From a virus: a stretch of 64,000 bases of DNA. This document shows positions 8,578 through 36,063 of this stretch, piece by piece. Location: positions 62,001-126,000 of IMG/VR virus record IMGVR_UViG_3300034117_002447; one strand, given 5' to 3'. The translations under genes were made by a program, and so were the position numbers. A model generated the notes under the pieces. The model had not been told where the DNA came from and searched no databases. It worked only from the letters and a program-made list of their open reading frames with translations. The stretch's first letter is position 1, and each line of letters begins with the position of its first letter.

Positions 8578-9106
8578 GTGTATGTTTTGCTATTTTAGTT
8601 AAGGTGTCAAACGTTTGGGCAATACCATCGTATTCAGTATTGTATTTTAAGATTGCTTTATGAAGCTTACGTTCAGTAGAGATAATCTTCTTAACGTCCC
8701 ACCAATTACATGCCAATAGATCTGAACTAATTGACTCAATTTCATGAGCTCTCTTCTGATACAATTCAACAAGTGTCATCATCTTTTCCTGGATGGTCAT
8801 TGCTCTCTGTAATTTAAAATCTCTATCGGAAATCTCAATTAGAGCTGACTGTAGTAATTGCTGAACTTGGTAATGATCTATTGCAACTGGCAAATCTGAT
8901 CCTATTAAGTGATCAATATTACTTATCGTAACTGGTGTAGCGAGGTCAGACTCGCCGGCCAATCGCTTTGCGGAGTCCATTGTATTTGCAACAATAGCAA
9001 AGGGTCGATCGTAGTGATTAGTTCCTTGCCTCATTAGCTCAGTATGGCCAATTCCTCTTTTTGAAATTGCTGAAATTAGGCTCTTAATTTTATCTACAGT
9101 TGTCAT
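8558..9106 (-). CDS. unknown protein in the prs operon
   Basis: 182 residues, mostly helical. No recognised motif. It overlaps prs and follows 9109..9495 by two bases, so it is co-transcribed with PRPP synthetase and may serve nucleotide or NAD metabolism (inference only). Confidence 0.65.
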   Translation of the reverse strand: MTTVDKIKSLISAISKRGIGHTELMRQGTNHYDRPFAIVANTMDSAKRLAGESDLATPVTISNIDHLIGSDLPVAIDHYQVQQLLQSALIEISDRDFKLQRAMTIQEKMMTLVELYQKRAHEIESISSDLLACNWWDVKKIISTERKLHKAILKYNTEYDGIAQTFDTLTKIAKHTHETTNS

Positions 9107-9108
9107 AG

Positions 9109-9495
9109 TTATTCTCCTTTTTTTATTTTACTCAAGATTTCCTCAGGGATTTGGCGAATGCAATATTCTACAATATGTTTTAAGTCGTCGGTCGGTAGTA
9201 CCATTACCTGAAACGTGTATAAGGTCTCGCCTCCAATGATTGGATGAGGTTCTGTTGTTATCTGATCTTCAAACTCGTCAATCATGTGCTTTGCGACTTT
9301 CTGCATCAGCTGAGCACTTACCATCTTATCAATATCTAACTGCGGATTGGCTGACTTAAGTTCTTCACTAACAACATGTTTAGTCGTAAGTAAAGATCTT
9401 TCAAGCAGAGCAGCCTGTTTAAAATTACGTAACTGCACCAGAGCTTTTGAGATGTACTCATTTGGTGTAATGCCGTCCATGTTTACGTCTCTCAT
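9109..9495 (-). CDS. unknown protein
   Basis: 128 residues, helical, no signal peptide or membrane segment. Two-base gap to the next gene and two-base gap to the one before, so part of the 7648-10006 operon. Confidence 0.65.
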   Translation of the reverse strand: MRDVNMDGITPNEYISKALVQLRNFKQAALLERSLLTTKHVVSEELKSANPQLDIDKMVSAQLMQKVAKHMIDEFEDQITTEPHPIIGGETLYTFQVMVLPTDDLKHIVEYCIRQIPEEILSKIKKGE

Positions 9496-9497
9496 TT

Positions 9498-9752
9498 TTA
9501 TTGATTGTTAAAAAGTTCAAGGTACTTATTTCGGATTTCGATCGCTTTTCGTCTTTTAGAAAACGAGGCGCCGTCCGGTAAAACGATTGCGTTTAATTCG
9601 GACTCTTCTGCATTTTCGCAAATGAAATCAAACTCATCGTCAGTTATGTTAAAGCTGGAGATCATCATGTCATCCATTAGGTCAGTTATTCCATGCTTGC
9701 CAGGTAGGACTGATTTTAGGCAAGCTTGTACTTCAGGTCTTAATACTTTCAT
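9498..9752 (-). CDS. small unknown protein
   Basis: 84 residues, acidic middle (DDEFDFICENAEESE) and basic end. Its start overlaps the stop of 9752..10006. No function assigned. Confidence 0.6.
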   Translation of the reverse strand: MKVLRPEVQACLKSVLPGKHGITDLMDDMMISSFNITDDEFDFICENAEESELNAIVLPDGASFSKRRKAIEIRNKYLELFNNQ

Positions 9753-22578: not shown

Positions 22579-23181
22579 ATGAATTACACAAAAGAAATGA
22601 TCGAGGCTGCAGTTAAGGCAAAGGGTTATGCTTGGTTCGAAGGGGCCAAAGACTATGACCTAAATCTAGTTGGGGTTAGAAATAACTCAGCGGCAATCGC
22701 AGATAAAGTTACTAATCTATTTGACGATTGGATGACTGCTTCTTATAAAGTTAACGGCGTATGGCAATTTAACTGCTGGCCAATAACTACTGATCCGGGT
22801 AAGAAAGCTATGCTTGAATATCACAATCCAAATGGAGTTGCTCGAGTAGTTCCAGGACAATATCGTGGAATGTGGGCGATTGGATTACACCAGGGCAAAT
22901 ACGAAGCACTAAGACAGGTTAAGCCAGTTAAAGTTTATCGTGATAAAAACAAAGACATGAAGTATGACGAAACAACAATTCAAGAAGGAATCTTTGGAAT
23001 TAACGGTCACCGCTCTAACCCAAAAACTCAATCTGAATACGTTGAAAACTGGTCCGAAGGTTGTCAAGTATTTAAAAAGGTTGCAGACTTTAATGCCTTA
23101 ATGAAACTTGCAAATCTAGCTAAAGCAATCCACGGAAATTCATTCACTTACACTCTATTGGAATCAACTGATATTGTTTAA
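22579..23181 (+). CDS. L,D-transpeptidase-like phage lysis protein
   Basis: 200 residues. The C-terminal half has FGINGHRSNPKTQ and NWSEGCQVF, which resembles the HxxxSxGC active-site arrangement of YkuD-type peptidoglycan enzymes. It stands directly before the GH19 endolysin gene, so a cell-wall role is likely. Own terminator downstream. The assignment rests on the motif only. Confidence 0.55.
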   Translation: MNYTKEMIEAAVKAKGYAWFEGAKDYDLNLVGVRNNSAAIADKVTNLFDDWMTASYKVNGVWQFNCWPITTDPGKKAMLEYHNPNGVARVVPGQYRGMWAIGLHQGKYEALRQVKPVKVYRDKNKDMKYDETTIQEGIFGINGHRSNPKTQSEYVENWSEGCQVFKKVADFNALMKLANLAKAIHGNSFTYTLLESTDIV

Positions 23182-23201: not shown

Positions 23202-23229
23202 AACCCCCAGCTTAAACTGGGGGTTTTTT
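23202..23229 (+). terminator. rho-independent terminator
   Basis: AACCCCCAG/CTGGGGGTT stem followed by TTTTTT on plus. Confidence 0.9.
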
Positions 23230-23255: not shown

Positions 23256-23265
23256 GATAAATAAC
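23256..23265 (+). promoter_or_regulatory. late-type promoter on plus strand
   Basis: GATAAATAAC, 17 bases before the endolysin ATG. Confidence 0.7.
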
Positions 23266-23281: not shown

Positions 23282-24106
23282 ATGCTATTAAAGAATGGAT
23301 CTAATGGCCCAGAGGTTGCCAAAATGCAAGCACTCCTAGGAGTAGGCGCAGATGGAAGCTTCGGACCTGGAACAGAAACCGCTGTCAAAGCATGGCAGCA
23401 AGCAAACGGGCTTACTCCTGACGGTATCGTCGGAGATGCTACTTGGGCTAAGATGTTTGGTGCAGCTCCAGTTGCAGCTCCAGCAGCTACGCCAATCCCA
23501 CCATCAAGTTTTAAACTTGAAAAACTAGCTGGACATGTACCAGCAGCAGTAATCGCTCAAATTCCTGACACAGCTGCAAAATTCGGAATCACTAATCCTT
23601 TAAGATTAGCTCACTTCCTTGCGCAATGTGGACACGAAAGTGGAGGATTCAAAGCAGTTAACGAGAATCTAAACTATTCAGCTGACGGTCTTAAAAAGAT
23701 CTTCGGAAAGTATTTTCCTGGTAACTTAAACGAGTCTTATGCTCGTCAACCTGAAAAAATCGCTGCTAGAGTGTATGCTTCTAGAATGGGTAATGGAGAT
23801 GAAGCTTCGAAAGAAGGTTTTAAATTCAGAGGTCGCGGTTACATTCAATTGACTGGTAAATCGAATTACACAAACTTTGCAAAATTTATCGGCGAGGATA
23901 CTGTTGCTAATCCGGATCTAGTCGCTACAAAATACCCACTCGCATCGGCTGCTTTCTTTTTTCAGTCTAATGGCTTATGGGCGATTTGTGATAAAGGAGC
24001 AGACACTGCTGCTGTAACTGCGGTAACTAAGAGAGTTAATGGTGGAACGATTGGTTTGGCTGACCGTATTAAACACTTTAACGAGTATTACGCTTTATTA
24101 AAATAA
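23282..24106 (+). CDS. endolysin: peptidoglycan-binding plus GH19 domain
   Basis: 274 residues. Residues 1-60 form a PG_binding_1 domain (NGPEVAKMQALLG, GSFGPGTETAVKAWQ). After an Ala/Pro linker, a GH19 lysozyme/chitinase-like domain follows (about 80-274: HFLAQCGHESGGF with catalytic Glu, FKFRGRGYIQLTG, ITKRVNGG-like TKRVNGGTIGL). Cleaves the peptidoglycan glycan chain for lysis. No signal peptide, so it needs a holin; candidates are just downstream. Confidence 0.9.
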   Translation: MLLKNGSNGPEVAKMQALLGVGADGSFGPGTETAVKAWQQANGLTPDGIVGDATWAKMFGAAPVAAPAATPIPPSSFKLEKLAGHVPAAVIAQIPDTAAKFGITNPLRLAHFLAQCGHESGGFKAVNENLNYSADGLKKIFGKYFPGNLNESYARQPEKIAARVYASRMGNGDEASKEGFKFRGRGYIQLTGKSNYTNFAKFIGEDTVANPDLVATKYPLASAAFFFQSNGLWAICDKGADTAAVTAVTKRVNGGTIGLADRIKHFNEYYALLK

Positions 24107-24124: not shown

Positions 24125-26047
24125 ATGAAAAAAATAATCTTTATTCTATTCGCACTAGTCACGTGCGCACTCTCTACTGGAGTTTATGCTCAAAGTGGAC
24201 CTCCTGCCCCAGGCGCAGGAATTTGGACAATCATTGATACGACATATCAAGTTGGTACAAGTACGCTAGGTCAGTCCAAAGCCAGAATCACGCTAAAGAA
24301 TGCAACTATCTCAAAATACACAGGTATTCAAACTCGAATATTTTACGATAAGGATGCATTTGCTAGTGCATCAGTTGCGCTAGTTGGATCGCCTACTAAC
24401 TTATATTTACAGTCAGTAGATAGTAATGCTACCGGTTACGTAACCCTTTCATTAGTGTATACTGGAAACAGCAGTACTTATACTCTAGCGGACGGTGAAA
24501 CCTTTGAAATAACCTTTACTCACGTTGCAGCTGCATCGTTTTATGCGTTACCCTCAATCAGTGCTCTTACGTTTAGTGGCGCAGCTTCTTTTACTACACT
24601 CGCTGCATCTCAGACAGGTTTAGATACTACTCTAAGCAAGCATAGCTACGGCGGTGTATGGGAACAGCCTACTTTAGACTTCCATGGTAAATTTACAAAC
24701 GTTACTGGAACTGGAGCAAAGAACTTAACTTTAGCTCTTGAGAAAAAGGTAAAAGCTGGAGGTACTTGGGGAACTCATGATACGTACGTAACTGACCTAA
24801 GTGGAAATTTTGCATTTAGCGAAATTATTGATACTACTTATTATGATGTACGCCTTGCAATTAAAGGTGATACGATGACGGTAGGAAACGTTATATCAAC
24901 AGCAGATGCTCAATTAATTAATCAATGGGTGTTAGGGTCAGCGACTCCTTCCGGATTCGACTTCTATACAGCAGATGTTAACGGTTCAACTAACGTAACA
25001 ATAACTGATGCATACGGAGTATTTGGTAGAATTGCTGGAAGATTCACTGAATGGCCTAATGCCGTTGAGGATGTTAAGTTCTTTACTGCTGCCCAATACA
25101 CAACAATCACAGGATCTCCATCGACTAACTATACTTCAACTTATGCTGGAGTAACAAACTTCTACTACGACATTTTACCAGGACAACCTGATTCAGTTCA
25201 ATATTACGTACTTGTTCCAGGAGATGCAAACGGTACGGGTTACAACATGGCTCGTTTAACGCCAATTGAAGTAATGATCAATCCACCGGCTGGAACCCCA
25301 GCTCAAACTGAAAACGTAATTGATATGACAGTTGAATACGATTTTCCAACGAGCTCAATTGAAGTTAATCTTCCTAATCTTTCTGTAAATTCAGGAAATC
25401 TAGTAGAAATACCGGTTACTGTTAAAACTGGAGGAAAGGATATTTCGTCTCTTCAATTAGCAATGTTATACGATCAGACCTTATTGGAATTTAAAGACAT
25501 TACTAACTCTGCTAAATCAATGCAGTGGATGTCTTCATTCAATCCAACTGGCGGAATTATCGAATGGGCCGGTTACGATCCATCAGCTAACAAAAGCTAC
25601 ATGATTCCAGATAATTATGAAGTTTTTAAATTGAGATTTATCGCACTTAAACCTCAAATTGATTGGGAGGCATCGCCTTTGTATACTTCTAGAAAATTCT
25701 CAGGAGACAATCAATCTAGGGATTTATCAATCACCGCAGCAAACGGCATCTTAATCGTTGCTAAAATGGCTGGACCTTCTGGTCAATTGGATAACTTTGA
25801 AATTACCGCATTTCCCAATCCAACTACTGGAGAGATAAGCTTTGACTTCTCAGTTAAGAATAGCGGAATGGTTAAGTTAGTAATCGTTGACCTAAACGGA
25901 TCAGAACAATTTGTTATACTTGATCAAGACATGCCAGCTGGAAAATACGTATACTCTTCCAATATTAATCAGTTAACTAGCGGATTATACGTTGCTTCTT
26001 TACAGGCAGTTGATCAAATTAACTCTACTAAAATCATAAAAAAATAA
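24125..26047 (+). CDS. secreted T9SS-sorted protein with cohesin- and dockerin-like domains
   Basis: 640 residues. Signal peptide 1-22 (ends VYAQ). Cohesin-like beta repeats around 25-170 and 415-530 (NLVEIPVTVKTGGKDISSLQL). A dockerin-like segment at about 270-330 (YTADVNGSTNVTITDAYGVFG). The last ~80 residues match a type IX secretion C-terminal sorting domain: FPNPTTGEISFDF, VIVDLNGSEQF, LTSGLYVASLQ, KIIKK. If real, the host T9SS exports it to the cell surface. Not a usual phage protein; possibly a late surface modifier or lysis aid. Confidence 0.8.
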   Translation: MKKIIFILFALVTCALSTGVYAQSGPPAPGAGIWTIIDTTYQVGTSTLGQSKARITLKNATISKYTGIQTRIFYDKDAFASASVALVGSPTNLYLQSVDSNATGYVTLSLVYTGNSSTYTLADGETFEITFTHVAAASFYALPSISALTFSGAASFTTLAASQTGLDTTLSKHSYGGVWEQPTLDFHGKFTNVTGTGAKNLTLALEKKVKAGGTWGTHDTYVTDLSGNFAFSEIIDTTYYDVRLAIKGDTMTVGNVISTADAQLINQWVLGSATPSGFDFYTADVNGSTNVTITDAYGVFGRIAGRFTEWPNAVEDVKFFTAAQYTTITGSPSTNYTSTYAGVTNFYYDILPGQPDSVQYYVLVPGDANGTGYNMARLTPIEVMINPPAGTPAQTENVIDMTVEYDFPTSSIEVNLPNLSVNSGNLVEIPVTVKTGGKDISSLQLAMLYDQTLLEFKDITNSAKSMQWMSSFNPTGGIIEWAGYDPSANKSYMIPDNYEVFKLRFIALKPQIDWEASPLYTSRKFSGDNQSRDLSITAANGILIVAKMAGPSGQLDNFEITAFPNPTTGEISFDFSVKNSGMVKLVIVDLNGSEQFVILDQDMPAGKYVYSSNINQLTSGLYVASLQAVDQINSTKIIKK

Positions 26048-26054
26048 ACAAACA

Positions 26055-26396
26055 ATGTCTGAGGAAACAAACGCAGCAGAAACAAATGATGGAACATGGT
26101 CAGGTCTTAAGAAGACCCTGATCGGTACGATCTCTACGGCAGTTTTAGCTGGAGGTACATGGCTTACAACTACTCTATTTAACGGAGGTGACCATGAAAA
26201 AGAAGAAACGAAAACTGAACAGGTTGCACCAGCAGCTCAACCAGTTATCAACGTTAATCTTGAAAACAATAATACAAATCAACAAAAACAATCAGGCGGA
26301 ACTAACACAGTAATCCGTGAGAGAGTTGTTGAGAAAGCTCCAGCTGAAAAACCAGCGGAAAAGAAGAAGAGCGAGTCTGAAGACGCTCCTTGGTAA
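26055..26396 (+). CDS. single-span membrane protein, holin candidate
   Basis: 113 residues: one membrane segment at about 21-41 (TLIGTISTAVLAGGTWLTTTLF) and a long hydrophilic Asn/Gln/Lys/Glu-rich tail. Position after the endolysin suggests a lysis role. Ends at a terminator. Confidence 0.5.
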   Translation: MSEETNAAETNDGTWSGLKKTLIGTISTAVLAGGTWLTTTLFNGGDHEKEETKTEQVAPAAQPVINVNLENNNTNQQKQSGGTNTVIRERVVEKAPAEKPAEKKKSESEDAPW

Positions 26397-26400
26397 TCAG

Positions 26401-26430
26401 AAGGCGGATTAACGTCCGCCTTTTTATTTT
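26401..26430 (+). terminator. rho-independent terminator
   Basis: GGCGGA/TCCGCC stem followed by TTTTT on plus, directly after the stop at 26396. Confidence 0.88.
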
Positions 26431-26457
26431 CAGAACTAAAAATAAACTACTACTACA

Positions 26458-26820
26458 ATGTCTAATTTGAAAAAATTATTAATCGGTGAATCTGCATACG
26501 TAAAGGTTGAAGACAAGAATCGCTTCTACTACATGCTACAACAAATGCAGTCAAACCGTTGGAAAATTACAGGAATCGTTCTATTTCTTTTCTTCTTTAT
26601 TATTGCTGGAATTAATTCAGCTGTATTTTTTGGAGTAACAATCGCAGAAGATTGGAAAGAATTACTACTTCTTTTATTGGGAGCCTTTGTTGGTAACCTA
26701 AATAAAGTAGTTGACTACTGGTTCAATTCAGAAGATCGTGATAAAATGTTAATTCAAAAGGTTGACGAAGAAGATGGAGTATCTCTTTCTAATACTACTT
26801 CAAATAACGTAACCGAATAA
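26458..26820 (+). CDS. two-span membrane protein, holin candidate
   Basis: 120 residues with two hydrophobic stretches (about 39-60 and 68-84: GIVLFLFFFIIAGINSAVFF and LLLLLLGAFVGNL) and a charged C-terminus. Size and topology fit a class II holin, but the operon context of exported proteins leaves other roles open. Confidence 0.5.
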   Translation: MSNLKKLLIGESAYVKVEDKNRFYYMLQQMQSNRWKITGIVLFLFFFIIAGINSAVFFGVTIAEDWKELLLLLLGAFVGNLNKVVDYWFNSEDRDKMLIQKVDEEDGVSLSNTTSNNVTE

Positions 26821-26822
26821 TC

Positions 26823-27542
26823 ATGAAGAGATTAGCACTTATCTTAATAATGCTTTTCTCAGTAAGCTTATGTATTGCTCAGCCTGGTTCAATCAAGACT
26901 GAGCAGTACCGAGCTTCTTTTGAAAAGAAGATGTCAATTGACTCTGTTCCGGAATATACTGACACAATTAAAATTCCTATTCAATTATTAAAGATTGGAA
27001 TTAATGAGGAGCTTTACGAAATGTATCCTGAGTTAAAGGATAAACGGGTTGGTCTTGGTGTAACAAATATTGTATTGGAATATTTGGAATACACAAACCG
27101 TTTTGTATTTACTGAAGACAAACTTGAAATTAAAGAGAGAATGATTAGTCAATTTAAAGCGTCTGATAAAGGATTCACTGAGAATAAACTAGACGGCCGT
27201 GGTAAAATCAAGTTAGCAAAATACTTTGTCTATATTGAAGTTTACGATTTCTCTGTATCAGAAGATGAAGTCGTTAGAATAAACGGCGAGTCTAAAACAA
27301 CTCAAACAACTCGACTGGGTTTACAGGTAAAATTCGTTGATGCTGAGACTGGAGAAGTTCTAGTTGGTTCAGGATTAGGCGAAGCTTCCACTATTAAAAC
27401 CGTTTCTATTTTAGATGGAGTGGACGATAGTGAAATTAAATTTAACCAATCTACCATTGGTATTACAACTAAAAAGGCGTTAGAGACAGCATCGTCTAGG
27501 ATAGTGGTGAGAATGATTAAGAAGAATATCTTCAAAAATTAA
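26823..27542 (+). CDS. CsgG-like exported protein
   Basis: 239 residues with signal peptide 1-19 (LCIAQ). The body resembles CsgG-family curli secretion lipoproteins: VGLGVTNIVLEYLEYTNRF, FTEDKLEIKERM, VKFVDAETGEVL, TTKKALETASSRI. The lipobox Cys of true CsgG is not obvious (Cys17 is followed by IAQ). CsgG forms an outer-membrane pore. The C-terminal half also resembles the product of 30718..31191. Confidence 0.65.
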   Translation: MKRLALILIMLFSVSLCIAQPGSIKTEQYRASFEKKMSIDSVPEYTDTIKIPIQLLKIGINEELYEMYPELKDKRVGLGVTNIVLEYLEYTNRFVFTEDKLEIKERMISQFKASDKGFTENKLDGRGKIKLAKYFVYIEVYDFSVSEDEVVRINGESKTTQTTRLGLQVKFVDAETGEVLVGSGLGEASTIKTVSILDGVDDSEIKFNQSTIGITTKKALETASSRIVVRMIKKNIFKN

Positions 27543-27556
27543 AATATGAAACGCAA

Positions 27557-29227
27557 ATGTATGTTAAAAAAATTATACTGCTTATTGCGTGGATCTTAGT
27601 ATCGTCATTGGGAATGGCTCAAACCTTTTCCTACAATTACACTGATCCATGTACTGGAATAAACAAAACAATACAAGTTCCATCAAACGGAATAACAGTA
27701 ACCTATTACGGTCAAGTAAATACATTTCAACCAACGGATTTTTACAATGGAGGTTTTGAGACATGGGCTCAAGGCGTTTATTCTTCCTTTGGTAATAACA
27801 ACCCATGTGCAAGTTTAGTAGGAATGCCTACTTCAGTTAATATAGCACAAAATACAGCAATTAGTTTTCTAGGAATAGTAAACTCATTATCGGCTCTATC
27901 TGATATGGCTGGCGGATCAAGTAATATGATTGGCGGAACTGTCTCTAGTGTACAAAATTCCTCCAAGTCAAAGGGTAACTCCAAAAATAAAGGCGGGGCG
28001 GATAAACCTGCAGAAAATAGTACTTCAACAAATGCACAATCTAATGGAAGTACTGGTGGTAGCTCTAACTCTGGGACCACTAGTAACAATGGGAGCTCTA
28101 CTAGCAGTAGTGGATCTTCTACGACACAGGGCTCACAGACTCAAGGTTCGAACGAAACTGGCTCGACAAGCAGCGGAGGATCTGGAGAACCAGGATCAAC
28201 TGCCGGTAACGGAACAGCTGGGTCTCAAGCTGGCAATGGAACCTCTGGGTCTCAAGCAGGTGGATCAACCACTGGAAGCGGTTCAACGACCGGCTCAACT
28301 ACCGGAAGCGGTTCAACGACCGGCTCAACTACCGGAAGCGGATCAACAACCGGCAACGGAACTACCGGATCTCAAGCTAGCGGATCAACTTCAAATAGCG
28401 GCAATGTTAATGGAGGCGGGTCTGGAACGACCGCTGGCTCTGGAACAAGCGGCTCAAATAATCAGTCAACGCCAACTTCTGAAACAGAAGCAGGTGGAAA
28501 AACTAACTTAATTGGCGGATCAGTTGGTTCAGTACAGGAATCAACTTCCGCAGGTGGAGGAGCAGCCGGTGCCTCTAATAAAAATGGGAATCGACCTAGT
28601 ATTTTAGCAAGCAGCGATTTCGTTGGATTCAATTTTAAAAATTCAGATGTTACAGTTGGAGGAAAGGTCACTGGAGGTTACTCATCAATGAGATGGGACG
28701 GAAAGAGATCTCACGGAATTAGTGCAGACTATACGACTGCTATAAAGGGTCCAAATATTACAGGCTTTTATGCATTCATGAATAAGCGAAGAATAGATTT
28801 AATCTCTACATCGCTTACTATTGGTTTTGAAAGACAAATGACTGTCTATGGAACATTAGCAGTAGGTCAAATGTGGACTCTAAATAAGCCGAAAAACCTA
28901 AAAGCTCTTTATATGCTAACCGGTTCAGTCGGCCAAGTATCAGGGACTGCTTTTATAGGAACTGCTGCTATTGCTGGAGGAATGTATGACTGGAAAATCT
29001 CTAAGAGAATTTCAGTAAAAATGTTATGTTTGTACGTGTATGCCCCATACGTTAGTTACTATAATGATGTTCTATTAAAATCACCACATGTGGTTTTACC
29101 TATTATGGGAACTAATATCGGGATAACTAAACGATTTAAGCTTAACATAAACGCCGGTGGAGCTTGGGCGATTAATGAATCCACATTAAACTATACCATC
29201 ATGCTGGGAACTCGCATGCTATTATGA
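27557..29227 (+). CDS. exported protein with Gly/Ser/Thr repeat linker and beta-barrel-like end
   Basis: 556 residues. Signal peptide 1-21 (GMAQ). Residues about 135-315 are Gly/Ser/Thr/Asn repeats (GSGSTTGSTT units). The same phrase, NxIGG(T/S)V(S/G)SVQ, stands on both sides of the linker. The last ~200 residues alternate like an outer-membrane beta-barrel and end TLNYTIMLGTRMLL. The long plus-strand ORF 27930-28511 in another frame is a shadow of the repeat. Confidence 0.65.
   Translation: MYVKKIILLIAWILVSSLGMAQTFSYNYTDPCTGINKTIQVPSNGITVTYYGQVNTFQPTDFYNGGFETWAQGVYSSFGNNNPCASLVGMPTSVNIAQNTAISFLGIVNSLSALSDMAGGSSNMIGGTVSSVQNSSKSKGNSKNKGGADKPAENSTSTNAQSNGSTGGSSNSGTTSNNGSSTSSSGSSTTQGSQTQGSNETGSTSSGGSGEPGSTAGNGTAGSQAGNGTSGSQAGGSTTGSGSTTGSTTGSGSTTGSTTGSGSTTGNGTTGSQASGSTSNSGNVNGGGSGTTAGSGTSGSNNQSTPTSETEAGGKTNLIGGSVGSVQESTSAGGGAAGASNKNGNRPSILASSDFVGFNFKNSDVTVGGKVTGGYSSMRWDGKRSHGISADYTTAIKGPNITGFYAFMNKRRIDLISTSLTIGFERQMTVYGTLAVGQMWTLNKPKNLKALYMLTGSVGQVSGTAFIGTAAIAGGMYDWKISKRISVKMLCLYVYAPYVSYYNDVLLKSPHVVLPIMGTNIGITKRFKLNINAGGAWAINESTLNYTIMLGTRMLL
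28265..28350 (+). repeat. 30-bp tandem repeat inside the Gly/Ser linker
   Basis: GGAAGCGGTTCAACGACC followed by GGCTCAACTACC is repeated almost exactly two and a half times. It encodes GSGSTTGSTT and may vary in copy number. Confidence 0.8.
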
Positions 29228-30402
29228 GAAAGTTTATCATCACACTAATTGCTACATTGATTATAGGGTCGGTGTATGCTCAACCATTTACTTATTCAGG
29301 ATATGTTTATGGAGCTAATGGTCAAGGCTTACAAAATATACCAGTCTTGCTATACGGCAAAAGGATTGTTCAATATGAAGTAACTTTTCCTACTTATCCG
29401 ACTTCTCCTAGTTATACAACCGGTACCGTAATTCCATCATCGGACGATGCTACACATGGACCATTTAATATAGGATTTAGTTTTACCTACTTTGGAAATA
29501 CGTATACTCAATTTTACGTTGGATCAAATGGATGGATCGGGTTTAGCTCGGGCCAAACAACTGGATATACTGCAGCCTTTATTCCAAATGCAGGGTCTCC
29601 ATTAAACGCAATTTTAGCGGATTGGGAGGACTTATTTCCTGGATCAGCTAACATCAGATACGTAACATCAGGAACATCGCCCAATAGATCGTTGACTGTC
29701 TCTTTTAATGCAGTTCCGCATTATGGGTGTAGAACAAATCTACACACATTTCAGTTCATTCTATATGAAACGTCGAATTTAATAGATATAAATTATGCCT
29801 CAAAACCTTTATGTGGTAGTAATAACGCGACCGCCGGTCTAATATCAACTTCTTCGTCAACGGTTGTTCCAGTCGGTGGAAAGAATGCATCTCAATGGAG
29901 CGCAACTAATTATTCAGTTAGATTTACACCAGCTTCACCGGAAACTACATTCAGCATAAAGGGAACATATTACACTAATTCGTTGGGTCTATATTCAATG
30001 GTACCTAATTTAGATGACGCGTCCCATGATTTCCAAATTAGATTAGAAAATCTGACTATTAGTAATCCAATATCAACTGCTGCTCAATACCCTATTCAAA
30101 TGTTATTATACTCGGTGATGCCAAGCTCTAAATTGTATTATACAATGGACGTTAATCAAGATACTCGGTTTAATGTAACGGATTCCTATTGCATATTCGG
30201 TAAAATTTCAGGTAGATTTCCAAATTGGATAAATGCATATCCGTCGTATCGGATATTTACGCCAGCTCAATGGACAACTATTAATTCCGGGACAAGTGAT
30301 CTACGCTCCAGTATACCAGGAGTTCAATCAATGATTATTTCAACACCAACTAATGGAGGAACTACTAGCTTTTATCTGTTACGGACTGGCTATACACAAT
30401 AA
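29224..30402 (+). CDS. secreted protein sharing a domain with the T9SS-tagged protein
   Basis: 392 residues; signal peptide 1-19 (VYAQ). Carboxypeptidase-regulatory-like start (YSGYVYGANGQGLQNIPV), nidogen-like stretch (FNIGFSFTYFGNTY, VGSNGWIGF, LADWEDL). C-terminal dockerin-like segment MDVNQDTRFNVTDSYCIFGKI and a following GRF-W-NA-FTPAQWTTI pattern also found in 24125..26047. It lacks the sorting domain. ATG overlaps the stop of the previous gene. Confidence 0.68.
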   Translation: MRKFIITLIATLIIGSVYAQPFTYSGYVYGANGQGLQNIPVLLYGKRIVQYEVTFPTYPTSPSYTTGTVIPSSDDATHGPFNIGFSFTYFGNTYTQFYVGSNGWIGFSSGQTTGYTAAFIPNAGSPLNAILADWEDLFPGSANIRYVTSGTSPNRSLTVSFNAVPHYGCRTNLHTFQFILYETSNLIDINYASKPLCGSNNATAGLISTSSSTVVPVGGKNASQWSATNYSVRFTPASPETTFSIKGTYYTNSLGLYSMVPNLDDASHDFQIRLENLTISNPISTAAQYPIQMLLYSVMPSSKLYYTMDVNQDTRFNVTDSYCIFGKISGRFPNWINAYPSYRIFTPAQWTTINSGTSDLRSSIPGVQSMIISTPTNGGTTSFYLLRTGYTQ

Positions 30403-30422
30403 ATAAAAAAAACAAATTAAAT

Positions 30423-30704
30423 ATGGCAGAAGAAACAAACCCTACTTCAGGATTTACGGATACCTTCTTTTCTAAACTAAAAGAACAATCATTTACCATC
30501 GTACTTATGATAGCGGTTATTTGGTATCAAGGCGTGATGATGGAAGAGCGTGTAGCGTATTGGCAAAAACTATATGAAGCACAAAAAGCCTATACTGAGC
30601 AAACAGTAAAGGATGATAAACAAATTATGCTCGATCGAATACAATACTTACAAGACCAACGTGATAAATACGTTGAGGATGCAATAATTGAACTAAAAAA
30701 ATAA
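30423..30704 (+). CDS. membrane protein with coiled coil
   Basis: 93 residues: one membrane span at about 24-40 (SFTIVLMIAVIWYQGV), then a charged helix (EQTVKDDKQIMLDRIQYLQ). Resembles an inner-membrane spanin or a small scaffold; no certainty. Confidence 0.5.
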   Translation: MAEETNPTSGFTDTFFSKLKEQSFTIVLMIAVIWYQGVMMEERVAYWQKLYEAQKAYTEQTVKDDKQIMLDRIQYLQDQRDKYVEDAIIELKK

Positions 30705-30717
30705 TAAATTTTATAAG

Positions 30718-31191
30718 ATGAAGAAGTTTATTTTATTGCTTGCAGTTTTACTATTGGTACAGCTGCTGGCTTTTTCGCAAACTAGCCCAATTCACATGTG
30801 TATTAAAATAGACACAGTATATTCTACCGCAAAGGTTAGGGAATTAGGAAACCGTGATATTCGGTTTGGTGTAAAGCAAATAGCAGAAGACCTACTTTCT
30901 TCTAAATACTGTCTATCTGATGCAGGATCCCCAATTAAGATTGAGATCTATTATTTCGGTATTCCTAAAAGTACCATACGTATTGCTGGAATAGAAAAGA
31001 CTGAGCAGGTTACACAAGTCGCTGTTCGAATTTATTATAACGGGCAAAAGTACGAAGGGACTGGCGAGTCTGAGACTGAGGTGAGAGCCGTAATGATTGA
31101 ATTGGAAGAGGGTGCTATGCCGTTTTCTAAAATGACAGTATCTAATTCTATCAAAAAAGCACTTGAACAATGTATTTTAAAAATGCCTTAA
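30718..31191 (+). CDS. exported protein, CsgG-related half
   Basis: 157 residues with signal peptide (LLAFSQ). IEIYYFGIPKSTIRIAGIEK-like region and SNSIKKALEQ parallel IEVYDFSVSEDEVVRING and TTKKALETA of the CsgG-like protein, so the two look like divergent paralogues. Periplasmic or outer-membrane role inferred. Confidence 0.55.
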   Translation: MKKFILLLAVLLLVQLLAFSQTSPIHMCIKIDTVYSTAKVRELGNRDIRFGVKQIAEDLLSSKYCLSDAGSPIKIEIYYFGIPKSTIRIAGIEKTEQVTQVAVRIYYNGQKYEGTGESETEVRAVMIELEEGAMPFSKMTVSNSIKKALEQCILKMP

Positions 31192-31637
31192 TTGTATTAA
31201 TATTAACGATTCCAGTATTTGGATTTTCTCAAATAGTAATAGACGATGTCGGAGACGGCTGGAAGGCTAGAGTCGAGAGGGCTATTTTACTTGTAAAAGA
31301 TACTGACTCAGTTAGTTACCAAACTCTGATTACGAATTGTAAACGAATTGAGTTTATAATGGGCGATAGATCTACTAACCTTCCACCCAATACTATTGTG
31401 ATTAATACAAAGGACGTAACTAGTCCGTCTATTAATAATTTAGCGGCCGTATTGGTGCATGAGTCGTATCACCTGTACTTATGGAATAACTTGATTAAGT
31501 TTACAGCAAGAGAAGAGGAGCTCATGTGTTACATGCATGAATATAATTTTTTATGTAAGTTAACTGATGTCGAGGACTGGTTATTCCTAAATGCAGTTAA
31601 CCAAATAATACAGTTAAAAAATACACGTAACAAATAA
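31170..31637 (+). CDS. exported zinc metallopeptidase-like protein
   Basis: 155 residues; signal peptide 1-20 (GFSQ). Zinc site VLVHESYHLYL (HExxH), followed downstream by EEELMCYMHEYNF as a possible third ligand region. Overlaps its neighbours. A periplasmic protease could aid lysis or processing of the exported set. Confidence 0.65.
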   Translation: MYFKNALIVLILTIPVFGFSQIVIDDVGDGWKARVERAILLVKDTDSVSYQTLITNCKRIEFIMGDRSTNLPPNTIVINTKDVTSPSINNLAAVLVHESYHLYLWNNLIKFTAREEELMCYMHEYNFLCKLTDVEDWLFLNAVNQIIQLKNTRNK

Positions 31638-32380
31638 TGAAGTTTATATTAACGATACTATTACTGACAGTCTCATTACCTGTATTTAGTCAAATTAAAA
31701 AATCAATATCGGTTGGAGGAGATGGAACTAGGGGAAACTTTAGTGCAATTGGTATTACAACGAAAGCTGAATTAAAAAGAGATACTGGATCGTATCAATG
31801 GAATCTAAATACTACTTACCGTTGGAGCAAGCAATCCGCGTATGGAAAATCTGAAATGACTCAGTACGAAAATGAAGTCTACTTGACTGGAAATATTTCA
31901 AAACAGATAGGTAAGTTTAAAGTTATTGGATTTACTGAAGATGAGAGATCATACATGAGAAAAATAGATCTTCGAAGCTCAGCTGGTTTGGGATTAGGCG
32001 TATCAATTATCAAGAATAAGAAGTTCGATATTGTTTTCTCTGAAGTAATTTTGCCAGAGTATTTTTGGTCCAGCATTAAGGTTTCAAATAATAACTTTAC
32101 AGTAAGAGCATCATCTAGACTTAGAGCAAATTACGAAAGCGGATTGATTAAGATCTCGTCAGTTACTCTATTTCAGCCAGCAATTTATTCAAGCAGAGAA
32201 GTTTCTTTTCTAGATAATTTAAACATGCGAAGTACAAACACAATCGCACTTAAGATTAAAAAGAATTTAGAAATAGGATTAGTTTATACGTATAGCTATC
32301 AAGGTTACCCTCATTACATAACAGACTCAGTTAATCCTTCTCAGGAAACTGCGTCAGTTCTTTTAAAGTATATCTTTTAA
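31637..32380 (+). CDS. outer-membrane beta-barrel protein (DUF481-like)
   Basis: 247 residues; signal peptide 1-18 (PVFSQ). Alternating beta pattern throughout with a C-terminal aromatic end (ASVLLKYIF), typical of Omp assembly signals. Resembles DUF481 proteins. Last gene of the plus-strand block; the convergent minus gene stops one base away. Confidence 0.65.
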   Translation: MKFILTILLLTVSLPVFSQIKKSISVGGDGTRGNFSAIGITTKAELKRDTGSYQWNLNTTYRWSKQSAYGKSEMTQYENEVYLTGNISKQIGKFKVIGFTEDERSYMRKIDLRSSAGLGLGVSIIKNKKFDIVFSEVILPEYFWSSIKVSNNNFTVRASSRLRANYESGLIKISSVTLFQPAIYSSREVSFLDNLNMRSTNTIALKIKKNLEIGLVYTYSYQGYPHYITDSVNPSQETASVLLKYIF

Positions 32381-32558: not shown

Positions 32559-33014
32559 TTATTTGTTTTTATTTTTACGAGTTGACATTTCGTCTGGATC
32601 AAGTAGAGCTCTGCCGAATTCCTTAACTCGATCAGTGTATCTAACTTTGACTCCTTCGCTAATTGCTAGGGAATTACCCTCATCGTCAATCCGAACGAAT
32701 TTTATATTTGTGTGAGTAACTACTGTTTGAACTCCAGTGTAAACATTATGCTTACGAACTTCAATGTATAGAGTAACTGAAGTTGTTCCAAACGCCTTTA
32801 CTGATCCGTATATTTTTATAATATTACCGACCTTTACTGGCTTTGAAAAAACCAGCTCGTCAATTTTTAGGGTTACTACTCGTTGGGTGTCGCATATTTG
32901 AGATGCATAACTTGCAGCAGCATCGTCAATAATAGAAAGGATAATTCCACCAAACATATTATTGTGGACACCAATATCTCCTTGCTTGCAAATGTATGTA
33001 CTAATTAATTCCAT
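32559..33014 (-). CDS. hotdog-fold acyl-CoA thioesterase-like protein
   Basis: 151 residues. GDIGVHNNMFGGIILSIIDDAAA, VVTLKIDELVFSKPVKVGN and VTLYIEVRKHN follow the YciA-type thioesterase pattern with Asp in the catalytic helix. Unusual in a phage; may act on host acyl-CoA. Overlaps the upstream gene by 10 bases. Confidence 0.7.
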   Translation of the reverse strand: MELISTYICKQGDIGVHNNMFGGIILSIIDDAAASYASQICDTQRVVTLKIDELVFSKPVKVGNIIKIYGSVKAFGTTSVTLYIEVRKHNVYTGVQTVVTHTNIKFVRIDDEGNSLAISEGVKVRYTDRVKEFGRALLDPDEMSTRKNKNK

Positions 33015-33556
33015 TCTTCTTCGATTCGACTGTCGTCAGGTTTTGAATAAACTATTTTATGAGCAGCGACTTCATGCCGATTACCATTAAATAAGTCAAC
33101 GTATTTCTTGCCGGTTCCAGGCTTTAGGTACCCGATTGTTGCATGTGGATGGTAGTCTGGGAAATCAGTAGTGTGAGGTAACTTACTAAGTTCTGCATTA
33201 ATCTCAGCCAACACTGGATTTTCTACATCAAACTTAAGTACATCGTATTTAGCATTCTCAAATAGAGATGCATTATGTAGAGTCAGTTGACCGATTGGTT
33301 TAGATTTACATATCTCTAATACCTTAGCGTCATTAATATCTGCCGAATGAAGTCCATATAAAAGAGTTGTATGAGGTTCATCCTCAAGACCGTATGAACG
33401 ATCGCCCTCTTCTGTGTAGATATCTGCTTCATCTATTTTTGAATGCAGTTCAGGCATTGTTGGAAAATTGAAATAGACCATTGCACATCCATAACTATGA
33501 GCGTCTCCTTTCTTTTCAAATAATCCAGTTACGAATTGGCTAAATGATTTTAACAT
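33005..33556 (-). CDS. 2H phosphoesterase with capsid-targeting-like start
   Basis: 183 residues. Starts MLKSFSQFVTGLFEKK, close to the capsid-targeting leader. Two HxT/S motifs of the 2H (LigT/2'-5' RNA ligase-like) fold: EPHTTLLYGL and YHPHATIGYL. Would open cyclic phosphates or 2'-5' bonds, e.g. in RNA or in signalling oligonucleotides. If the leader works, the enzyme is delivered with the DNA. Confidence 0.72.
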   Translation of the reverse strand: MLKSFSQFVTGLFEKKGDAHSYGCAMVYFNFPTMPELHSKIDEADIYTEEGDRSYGLEDEPHTTLLYGLHSADINDAKVLEICKSKPIGQLTLHNASLFENAKYDVLKFDVENPVLAEINAELSKLPHTTDFPDYHPHATIGYLKPGTGKKYVDLFNGNRHEVAAHKIVYSKPDDSRIEEEWN

Positions 33557-33578: not shown

Positions 33579-34940
33579 TTACTTTGAAGAATACTTTAGG
33601 TTTTTCTTTAGCTCAAATAAATCTTCTCGATACATCTCAGTTGGATCCTTCTTTTTAATATCGACTAATAGCGATTTAATATCAGCAACTTCTTTCAATA
33701 ATTGCTCGTAAGTTTCTTTAGTCAGAGAGTGGATTGGCATGTTGAGTAAGTAGTTATACGATCCATTAACTTCGTCGAAGTCTGCCGTTTGCAGGTAGAG
33801 AATGATCTCTTTACGTGGAACGTTATTTACTTTAAGTTTACCATCAATAATAAGCTTAATGAATTTAGCTCGGTTCGATAAGTAAATTAATTCTTCACCG
33901 TACTTCTTGATTAAGAATGCTTTGCGTTTATCATAGAAACTTAATCTAAAGTTTACAAAGTAATCTACCACTTGAGTAATGTCCTCAAAGATTGCAAGCT
34001 TGCCCTTTTCATTTAAGCAGGTTAAGTTCTCAGTTTCAGTCTCAATCATCTTAAGGGTTTGGTCGAGCCGGCCTTTTCCAATTAGGTCAGCTAGTGTAGC
34101 TCTTGCAAATTTAAGAGTGTAGTTGATTCCATTTGAAGAATTGTCATCGTACGAAACAATAATTCCTCTATCTTGTAGAGTATTCAAATGAACTTCGTAT
34201 TTCTGAAAAGTCATTGATGGCGGAAGCTCTGTAATCTTGACAGTAGTAGTATTCAGAACTTCGTATACTCCACGCATAATGTACTGGTTAGTTCCAACGA
34301 CTGACTCGACTGGGCCAATGTAGTCTCTCCACCATGGAAGCAGTTTGCCTATTTTCTTGCCATCTAATACTTTAAGACATGAGTCTACTAAGTCTAATGG
34401 ATTACGATTTAATATGTTAGTGGCAAATCCTACTGCAATACCTGAGCTTCCGTTTAGTAGAACGGTTGGGATAATTGGCAAGAAGAATTTAGGTTCAATC
34501 GTATTTCCTTCTTCGACTTGATTCTCAAGCAATTCAAAATCCTTGTAAAGAAGTCTAAAATTTCCAGTAAGTTTAGTTGAAATATAACGAGCCGCACCAG
34601 CTTCAGGAGATCTTAGAGATCCGAACTGGCCTATCTCGTCAAGAAGAGGTAATGAATTCTTAAATGACTGAGCCATCCCAATGATTGCACCATTTAGAGA
34701 CCCGTCACCGTGATGGTAGTGGGCATCTGCTGCGATCTTACCACCTAACTGGAATATCTTTAATGGCTTTTCATTGCCTGATTTCCAGACTTTATCTGAG
34801 ATATAAATGATTTTACGCTGAGTAGGTTTGAAACCATCTATTACAGAAGGAATTGCCCGGTTTTCTAACGTGTACATTCCGTACATCGCATAGTCCTGAT
34901 CTAAGTATTCAGTTACTGTTTTATTCTTTACGTGTGTCAT
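33579..34940 (-). CDS. 52: T4 gp52-like topoisomerase II subunit
   Basis: 453 residues. GyrA-type N-terminus: RAIPSVIDGFKPTQRKIIY, HYHHGDGSLNGAIIGMAQ, FGSLRSPEAGAARYISTKL with catalytic Tyr, LLNGSSGIAVGFATNI. Same size as T4 gp52 (about 440). Forms a DNA topoisomerase with the gp39-like subunit at 37825; four genes lie between them. Start overlaps the SulP stop by 20 bases. Confidence 0.93.
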   Translation of the reverse strand: MTHVKNKTVTEYLDQDYAMYGMYTLENRAIPSVIDGFKPTQRKIIYISDKVWKSGNEKPLKIFQLGGKIAADAHYHHGDGSLNGAIIGMAQSFKNSLPLLDEIGQFGSLRSPEAGAARYISTKLTGNFRLLYKDFELLENQVEEGNTIEPKFFLPIIPTVLLNGSSGIAVGFATNILNRNPLDLVDSCLKVLDGKKIGKLLPWWRDYIGPVESVVGTNQYIMRGVYEVLNTTTVKITELPPSMTFQKYEVHLNTLQDRGIIVSYDDNSSNGINYTLKFARATLADLIGKGRLDQTLKMIETETENLTCLNEKGKLAIFEDITQVVDYFVNFRLSFYDKRKAFLIKKYGEELIYLSNRAKFIKLIIDGKLKVNNVPRKEIILYLQTADFDEVNGSYNYLLNMPIHSLTKETYEQLLKEVADIKSLLVDIKKKDPTEMYREDLFELKKNLKYSSK

Positions 34941-36063
34941 GCTTTAATATTAATTTACTAAAATAGAATACAATTGACCCGATGATTACACCGATTGCTA
35001 AGTTATGAGTAGCTAACGAAATAATAACTGTCAATATAATACTCAATAAGTTAAGTTTATTTCCTGATTTTATGCTTTGCCAATCCCCAGTTTGATATAC
35101 AACTACCAACATTACTCCAATTAATCCAACTAGCGGTAGTTGTTCAATCCATTTCCCAAACAATAGAATAATTAGAGAGAGCCCAATCCCTGCAACTATT
35201 CCAGAGAGTCGATGCTTTGCTCCAGCATTTACGTTTAAATTAGTCTGTCCGACTAGGACGCAGCCTCCCATTGTTCCAAAGAATCCGCTAACTATATTAC
35301 CAAGCCCTTGAGCAAATGTCTCTTTTGCTTTATCGCCGTGTTCATTTAATTTATGAGACACAGTATCGACAGTCAACAGAGATTCAGTTAAGCCAGACAC
35401 AGCCATCCCGAATGAATACGGTAAGACTGTCAATAGCAGACTCCAACTAAAGGTTGGGATAGCTAGCGTTGGCAAGCTTGCGGTTACTGGCGATAGATCG
35501 CCGACTGTCGCTAAGCCTAATGGAATTCCCATTAAGCAACCAACTGTAATCGACACTAACGCTGGAGGAAAACTAAATTTCCGTGAGGACCATATCATTG
35601 CAGCTGCGCATAATAATATAGTTGATATAGTTAATATTAGGCCAGTAGAAGATGGATTACCGATAGTTAAGTATTTAAACTGGCTTACTAAAATCATAAT
35701 CGCTAGTGCAATTAAGAAACCTGAAATAGCAGAAGGCGGAATCTTTTTAAATATTTTCCATGCACCTGAAGCCCAAATTATCAATTGAATAATTCCAGCA
35801 ACTACTACTCCAAGGAAAAGCGATTCAATTCCAGCAATTGATACGAGGCCGGCCATAATTACGGCAGTTGCCCCAGTCGCTCCACTAATTAAACCAGGTC
35901 TTCCGCCGAATATTGCAGTAGACAGAGCCATGAAGACTGCTGCCCATAATCCAATTTGAGGAGAAGCTCCGACTAATAAAGCAAATGAAATTGCTTCAGG
36001 TACAAGAGCAATTGCAATAGTTAAACCTGAAAGAATTTCTGTTTTTATTTGGTTTACATTCAT
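34921..36063 (-). CDS. SulP-family anion transporter
   Basis: 380 residues with about 10-12 membrane spans. SulP signature near the start: GLTIAIALVPEAISFALLVG, and GRPGLISGATGATAVIMAG; no C-terminal STAS domain (full SulP proteins are 500-600). Might carry sulfate or bicarbonate. Intact frame between topoisomerase genes. Possibly taken from a host. Confidence 0.85.
   Translation of the reverse strand: MNVNQIKTEILSGLTIAIALVPEAISFALLVGASPQIGLWAAVFMALSTAIFGGRPGLISGATGATAVIMAGLVSIAGIESLFLGVVVAGIIQLIIWASGAWKIFKKIPPSAISGFLIALAIMILVSQFKYLTIGNPSSTGLILTISTILLCAAAMIWSSRKFSFPPALVSITVGCLMGIPLGLATVGDLSPVTASLPTLAIPTFSWSLLLTVLPYSFGMAVSGLTESLLTVDTVSHKLNEHGDKAKETFAQGLGNIVSGFFGTMGGCVLVGQTNLNVNAGAKHRLSGIVAGIGLSLIILLFGKWIEQLPLVGLIGVMLVVVYQTGDWQSIKSGNKLNLLSIILTVIISLATHNLAIGVIIGSIVFYFSKLILKHDTRKE

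Follow-up and report, generated by a model that had tools for sequence, protein, structure and literature searches.

The stretch of DNA analysed here (the window; 64,000 nucleotides) corresponds to bases 62001-126000 of the 271,290-base virus record IMGVR_UViG_3300034117_002447, and carries an operon of ten plus-strand genes, named here A to J, which lie without sizeable gaps directly behind an endolysin gene. The record encodes a T4-type major capsid protein (Gp23 match, E 1.5e-41; the T4-like character of the carriers was checked in this record alone), and the closest cultured relative of the operon is found in Flavobacterium phage vB_FspM_immuto, which has 160 kb and grows on Flavobacterium sp. 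LMO8; together, these findings indicate a T4-like jumbo phage of Bacteroidota as the source virus. A DNA-level comparison with the phage collection showed no close relative, and 20 tRNA genes were detected in the window. An earlier, sequence-only reading had placed an operon of nine genes at positions 24125-32380; these coordinates are exact, with A starting at 24125 and J ending at 32380, and, apart from the genes numbering ten, its gene calls proved correct. The same reading counted seven genes with signal-peptide-like N termini ending in AQ or SQ, which were indeed recovered in A, D, E, F, H, I and J. Signal peptides were called here and below by a simple pattern rule, not a trained predictor, which found none of the AQ/SQ type in B, C or G, and gave 11 signal-peptide genes among the 323 of the whole 271-kb record, 7 of them inside the operon (hypergeometric P = 6e-10).

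Six of these genes, A, B, D, E, F and H, constitute an obligate unit, conserved in about 150 related viral contigs. Searches of IMG/VR for relatives of D produced 251 and 113 candidate stretches, and 153 loci were then examined, a number that, as with the other locus counts given here, takes in near-identical contigs. Besides D, present in all 153, these loci contained A in 146, B in 146, E in 152, F in 132 and H in 131 cases, the missing core genes being largely explained by contig ends. Linkage was tested without bias by fetching loci via A and via H and counting those with enough flank, and the six genes were found together in 50/50 A-anchored and 57/57 H-anchored loci. Carriers include contigs of >430 kb. 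In bacteria, two loci were found in the genome collection, both in metagenome-assembled genomes, one of which is also the single carrier among 395 Bacteroidota genomes. This near-absence from bacterial genomes points to a phage-borne unit and not to an occasionally acquired set of host genes.

The first gene of the unit, A (24125..26047), encodes a signal peptide with a VYAQ site, an N domain, a transthyretin-like domain, a dockerin-like module (calcium loop DVNGSTNVTITD at residue 284), a cohesin (residues 412-511) and a type A sorting domain of the type IX secretion system (T9SS; residues 563-640). The presence of a T9SS sorting domain had been proposed before, and was confirmed at the very C terminus above the curated cut-offs of both PF18962 (32.0 bits, cut-off 27) and TIGR04183 (31.6 bits, cut-off 23), whilst the cohesin matched PF00963 with 42.2 bits (cut-off 24.1). 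All 34 distinct full-length A relatives keep the sorting domain, 30 the cohesin and 19 the dockerin, and signal peptides were detected in 117/129 A relatives. Profile searches of solved structures with A returned cohesins, a ScaB dockerin entry (4uyp) and Por sorting domains. The N domain was considered as a second cohesin and rejected, as it shows no similarity to the cohesin of A. The putative partner of A, F (29224..30402), is composed of a signal peptide (86/96 relatives), an exchangeable ligand-binding domain and a C-terminal dockerin-like module (calcium loop DVNQDTRFNVTD at residue 309), without a sorting domain. Profile comparison by hhalign shows the dockerin-like module of A to be a homologue of that of F (99.8 percent, E 3e-30; unrelated controls 0.17-0.37), and a calcium-binding loop of the form D-x-N-x-[DSN]-x6-D occurs in 33/34 A proteins and 28/35 F proteins. 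Across the whole record there are exactly one cohesin, one sorting domain and two dockerin-like modules, those of A and F.

F is among the least conserved genes of the set: between loci whose D proteins are at least 90 percent identical, the F proteins without their last 150 residues share 21-97 percent identity. Its relatives carry C-type lectin (20/35), Laminin_G_3 (8), GEVED (5) or PA14 (3) domains, a solved-structure profile search with F retrieved C-type lectins, and no glycosidase family appears among the 25 domain families listed for F. Two loci (L094 and L123) contain two F genes each. A diversity-generating retroelement was discarded as the source of this variation, the record being devoid of reverse transcriptase. 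In the case of A, the gene is split into two in immuto and in about 30 other loci, each half having its own signal peptide: one half ends in the dockerin-like part, and the other consists of the cohesin and the sorting domain, the profile of the latter matching the 30 split second halves listed. The occurrence of both split and fused forms suggests that the halves belong together and fits a non-covalent joining, for which cohesin-dockerin binding would be the obvious bond.

The best conserved of the core genes is D (26823..27542), which encodes an exported protein of 239 aa with a CsgG-type fold. The likeness to CsgG noticed in the sequence-only reading stands at the level of fold and falls at that of the family model: neither D nor the rest of the record matched PF03783 (CsgG), and D is not a CsgG in the strict family sense. 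The AlphaFold2 model of D, a single chain of modest confidence (pLDDT 65) with extended strands at residues 134-195 and low confidence at 195-207, has CsgG as its top structural match (Foldseek E 9e-8, probability 1.00), and comparison by VIA gave CsgG with Z 12.9 (175 residues aligned, 4.1 Å), PelC with Z 11.3 and LptE with Z 9.5. At the sequence level, D matched a 17-sequence CsgG profile with E 9e-6 (reversed control 0.1; unrelated families 0.009-0.5), significance being first reached with this profile and not with just two CsgG sequences; phmmer and profile searches of PDB sequences gave nothing significant. Signal peptides occur in 99/102 D relatives; a lipobox-like motif is present in 38/102, but could not be made out in the D of the window. 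The Brevundimonas jumbo phages ON529855, ON529860 and ON529853 were also noticed to carry a gene distantly similar to CsgG (E 2e-6 to 7e-6), which is annotated there as hypothetical. H (30718..31191) encodes an exported protein of 157 aa, homologous to D but shorter (hhalign 97 percent, E 3e-11); on its own it is not significantly similar to CsgG, and its link to this protein runs via D.

The two remaining members of the unit are E and B. E (27557..29227) has a signal peptide (107/110 relatives), an N-terminal domain with two invariant cysteines, a disordered Gly/Ser-rich linker (residues 120-345) and a 12-strand outer-membrane barrel (348-555) that is predicted with confidence, and whose nearest structural matches are autotransporter barrels and translocators, with the amyloid exporter FapF lower down. 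B (26055..26396) is a protein of 113 aa with a tail rich in Pro, Glu and Lys and a single, weak segment that resembles a membrane anchor. No match to CsgF (PF10614) or to the curlin repeat (PF07012) was found in A-J, both of which were recovered in the pelagiphage HTVC008M. Taken together, D and E could be regarded as a phage-encoded outer-membrane channel similar to CsgG or FapF, which would secrete F independently of the host T9SS and leave to A merely the anchoring of F. The fold of D, the presence of FapF and autotransporter translocators among the matches of E and the lack of a sorting domain in F would fit such a conduit, and HTVC008M offers a precedent in combining true CsgG and CsgF with a protein that carries PA14 and curlin repeats. 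However, D fails the CsgG family model, its membrane hairpins are unconfirmed and generic 12-strand barrels match E equally well; a secretion route of this kind seems rather improbable.

The operon opens with the endolysin gene (23282..24106, plus strand), whose product has PG_binding_1 and GH19-type domains. An intrinsic-terminator-like hairpin (23202..23225, plus strand; 9 bp stem and T tail) parts the operon from the upstream gene, and behind it, 26 bases before the endolysin start codon, lies GATAAATA (23256..23263, plus strand), a T4-type late-promoter-like element. The late promoter of T4 is TATAAATA, to which GATAAATA is close. This motif is the most enriched 8-mer upstream of the genes of the record (26 seen vs 1.4 expected), and the genes under it include those for the tail sheath, a baseplate wedge subunit and a virion structural protein; a second upstream motif, TTAGTATAA, precedes genes that include those for a single-strand DNA binding protein and a helicase-like protein. 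Among the relatives, [TG]ATAAATA is present in 19/118 distinct A upstreams, vs 1.3 percent by chance. The motif at the head of the operon, the set of genes that it precedes and its recurrence upstream of A in relatives make late expression of the operon likely, as judged from these sequence signals. The terminator scan overall was not above the shuffle mean, the site at 23202..23225 being the strongest and intergenic. A further terminator-like hairpin from the hairpin scan lies between B and C (26399..26424, plus strand) and could act by attenuation, setting A and B above the later genes. Record-wide, GATAAATA and TTAGTATAA could yield a promoter map of this phage group.

Late-type expression would also be expected if A and F were virion parts, for instance a fibre or a capsid decoration, with incidental signal peptides, and lectin-type and Ig-like domains are frequent on phage virions. 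Nevertheless, signal peptides recur in the relatives of A, D, E and F at the frequencies given above, the sorting domain is universal in A and an outer-membrane barrel is no virion part, so that a structural role of this sort is very hard to sustain. On the other hand, the endolysin gene directly upstream, under the same late-type promoter, invites a reading in terms of outer-membrane egress, where B, D, H and E would make up a trans-envelope complex that acts with the endolysin and a holin-like C to open the outer membrane at lysis, A and F being its surface parts. An endolysin homologue is near the module in 93/153 loci and C in 77/153, and for methylophage Melnitz a role of CsgG in regulating lysis, similar to that of a pinholin, has been proposed (PMC9004378). 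C itself (26458..26820), an accessory inner-membrane protein of 120 aa with two hydrophobic segments, is possibly holin-like from its hydrophobicity alone, no family match above cut-offs having been found for it, and profile searches gave no spanin family match in the operon proteins. However, among the loci fetched without bias the endolysin is near in just about half (25/50 A-anchored and 28/57 H-anchored), A and F being present in all of them, and in immuto about 5.7 kb containing unrelated genes separate the annotated endolysin from the last gene of the module, behind which it lies. Moreover, breaking a membrane needs no variable lectin with a dockerin, and egress appears an unlikely main function for the set.

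The earlier view of an exported, late operon of the outer membrane or cell surface is borne out by the late-promoter motif and by the sorting domain kept in 34/34 A relatives; its candidate purposes were lysis, surface exclusion and biofilm changes. That interpretation, which is partly supported, overlooked three features: the pairing of cohesin and dockerin, a lectin-like domain in F that is exchangeable, and the conservation of six genes as an obligate set. These shift the weight toward the surface display of a ligand-binding protein. The reading preferred here, with moderate confidence, is that of a late surface-display module in which A is exported via the host T9SS, F docks on A, and D, E, H and B form an envelope apparatus. 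Its products would be carried over the inner membrane by Sec. The scaffold A would then cross the outer membrane via the host T9SS by means of its C-terminal sorting domain, and remain on the surface. F would attach by its dockerin to A's cohesin; this could happen in the periplasm, with both proteins leaving together, or at the surface. The genes of D, H, the barrel E and B, a membrane protein, invariably accompany those of A and F, and their products would form an apparatus that most probably helps F or A across the outer membrane, or assembles them there. As a result, the infected cell would be covered, shortly before lysis, with a lectin of the phage's choice. The likeliest use of such a coat would be to mask the glycans of the host surface and thereby keep progeny from being lost on spent cells, or to hold neighbouring cells together. 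The purpose is the weakest step of the proposal, with glycan masking, the capture of neighbouring cells and help in egress as the candidates.

Several points weigh against surface display. Export, docking and late expression are predictions from sequence. The Pfam dockerin scores of A and F in the window are under the cut-off (the best values among relatives are E 8e-5 and 6e-4), just one of the two dockerin calcium loops is intact, and no recognised lectin domain was found in the window F itself. Besides, the dockerin of A could allow chains of A or pairing in cis instead of the docking of F. If export occurs through the T9SS, the obligate D, E, H and B need a second role, and the endolysin neighbour fits lysis equally well.

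The rest of the operon and its surroundings are more variable. G (30423..30704) encodes 93 aa with an N-terminal hydrophobic segment and a helix, and is accessory (16/153 loci), as is I (31170..31637; 94/153 loci), an exported, zincin-like protein whose HExxH motif, already pointed out from the sequence, is kept in 61/61 distinct relatives. Two barrels had been foreseen in the operon, and next to that of E the second corresponds to the accessory J (31637..32380; 19/153 loci), a DUF481 outer-membrane barrel (35.1 bits, cut-off 21.1). Upstream of the operon, positions 22579-23181 (plus strand) encode a conserved protein of 200 aa for which Pfam gave no match; its gene lies close to the module in 39/153 loci and has its own terminator-like hairpin behind. 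An assignment of this protein as an L,D-transpeptidase was rejected, given the lack of a Pfam match and a motif test that succeeded in just 1/23 relatives. Downstream, the minus strand carries genes for a 4HBT thioesterase (32559-33014), for a 2'-5' RNA ligase-like protein (33005-33556) with a match to Acb1 (anti-CBASS) of 25.0 bits, slightly under the cut-off of 27, and for a phage SulP-type sulfate permease (34921-36063; 137 bits), which adjoins the gene of topoisomerase IV subunit A (33579-34940).

Among known systems, the curli (type VIII) genes of pelagimyophages and of methylophage Melnitz (HTVC008M gp014-gp018) are similar in that T4-like phages encode a CsgG-type exported protein beside secreted proteins, one of which, in HTVC008M, has a PA14 domain, as some F proteins do. 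These phages, however, have true CsgG (PF03783, 180 bits), CsgF and curlin repeats, which the window module lacks at the family level, showing instead a T9SS tag, a cohesin and dockerins. In HTVC008M, true CsgF and CsgG are accompanied by a protein, encoded four genes from CsgF, whose PA14 domain and curlin repeats score above the cut-offs of Pfam, a parallel that supports display. CsgA and CsgB were described as missing from pelagimyophages (PMC7029224). Nevertheless, gp018 of HTVC008M (L174:10638-11963) combines PA14 with curlin repeats and gp016 (8871-9557), annotated as CsgB-like, shows curlin-type repeats by eye, and the curli set of this phage may be complete, contrary to that report. 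The T9SS-tagged cargo genes of Cryophage (PMC7468147) are likewise phage-encoded, carry type A sorting domains and vary between phages, but they are described as separate enzyme or PA14 genes, whereas here a single tagged scaffold belongs to a fixed six-gene unit with cohesin, dockerin and envelope proteins. T9SS-tagged phage cargo is known also in crAss-like contigs (PMC6949934), as are CsgG and CsgF in phages (PMC7029224, PMC9004378). The fold of D is that shared by the outer-membrane lipoproteins CsgG, PelC and LptE, without a match at the level of the sequence family. Finally, the cellulosome resembles the module in having an anchored cohesin protein and dockerin-bearing cargo, and its ScaB (the profile match 4uyp) resembles A as an adaptor with both modules; it differs in that the phage set is without enzymes, with lectin-type cargo, T9SS anchoring and phage encoding.

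In the open-access literature, to which the search extended (subscription papers lay outside it), no paper was found that describes a cohesin or a dockerin as part of a display set encoded by a phage. The parts are individually known, and it is their combination that appears to be new among phage-encoded secretion and display operons, the set as such being apparently undescribed. Tentatively, T4-like phages of Bacteroidota may possess a complete and obligate six-gene machine for exporting, anchoring and plugging in exchangeable lectins at the surface of infected cells through cohesin-dockerin binding, which would rely on the host T9SS for one part and on an apparatus of their own, of CsgG-fold and barrel proteins, for another, as a counterpart of cellulosome-like scaffolds and a kind of system not described so far.

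A last consideration is related to the phage CsgG genes, which have been puzzling since their discovery in pelagiphages and have been seen as pores, lysis regulators or cell-capture fibres. In Bacteroidota phages, an independent and widely conserved set brings together a protein of CsgG fold, a scaffold tagged for the T9SS and a ligand-binding domain that is exchangeable, and this combination suggests surface display as the common theme. The cultured pair of Flavobacterium sp. LMO8 and immuto makes the purpose of this module directly testable, and its parts suggest a natural, phage-borne display scaffold.

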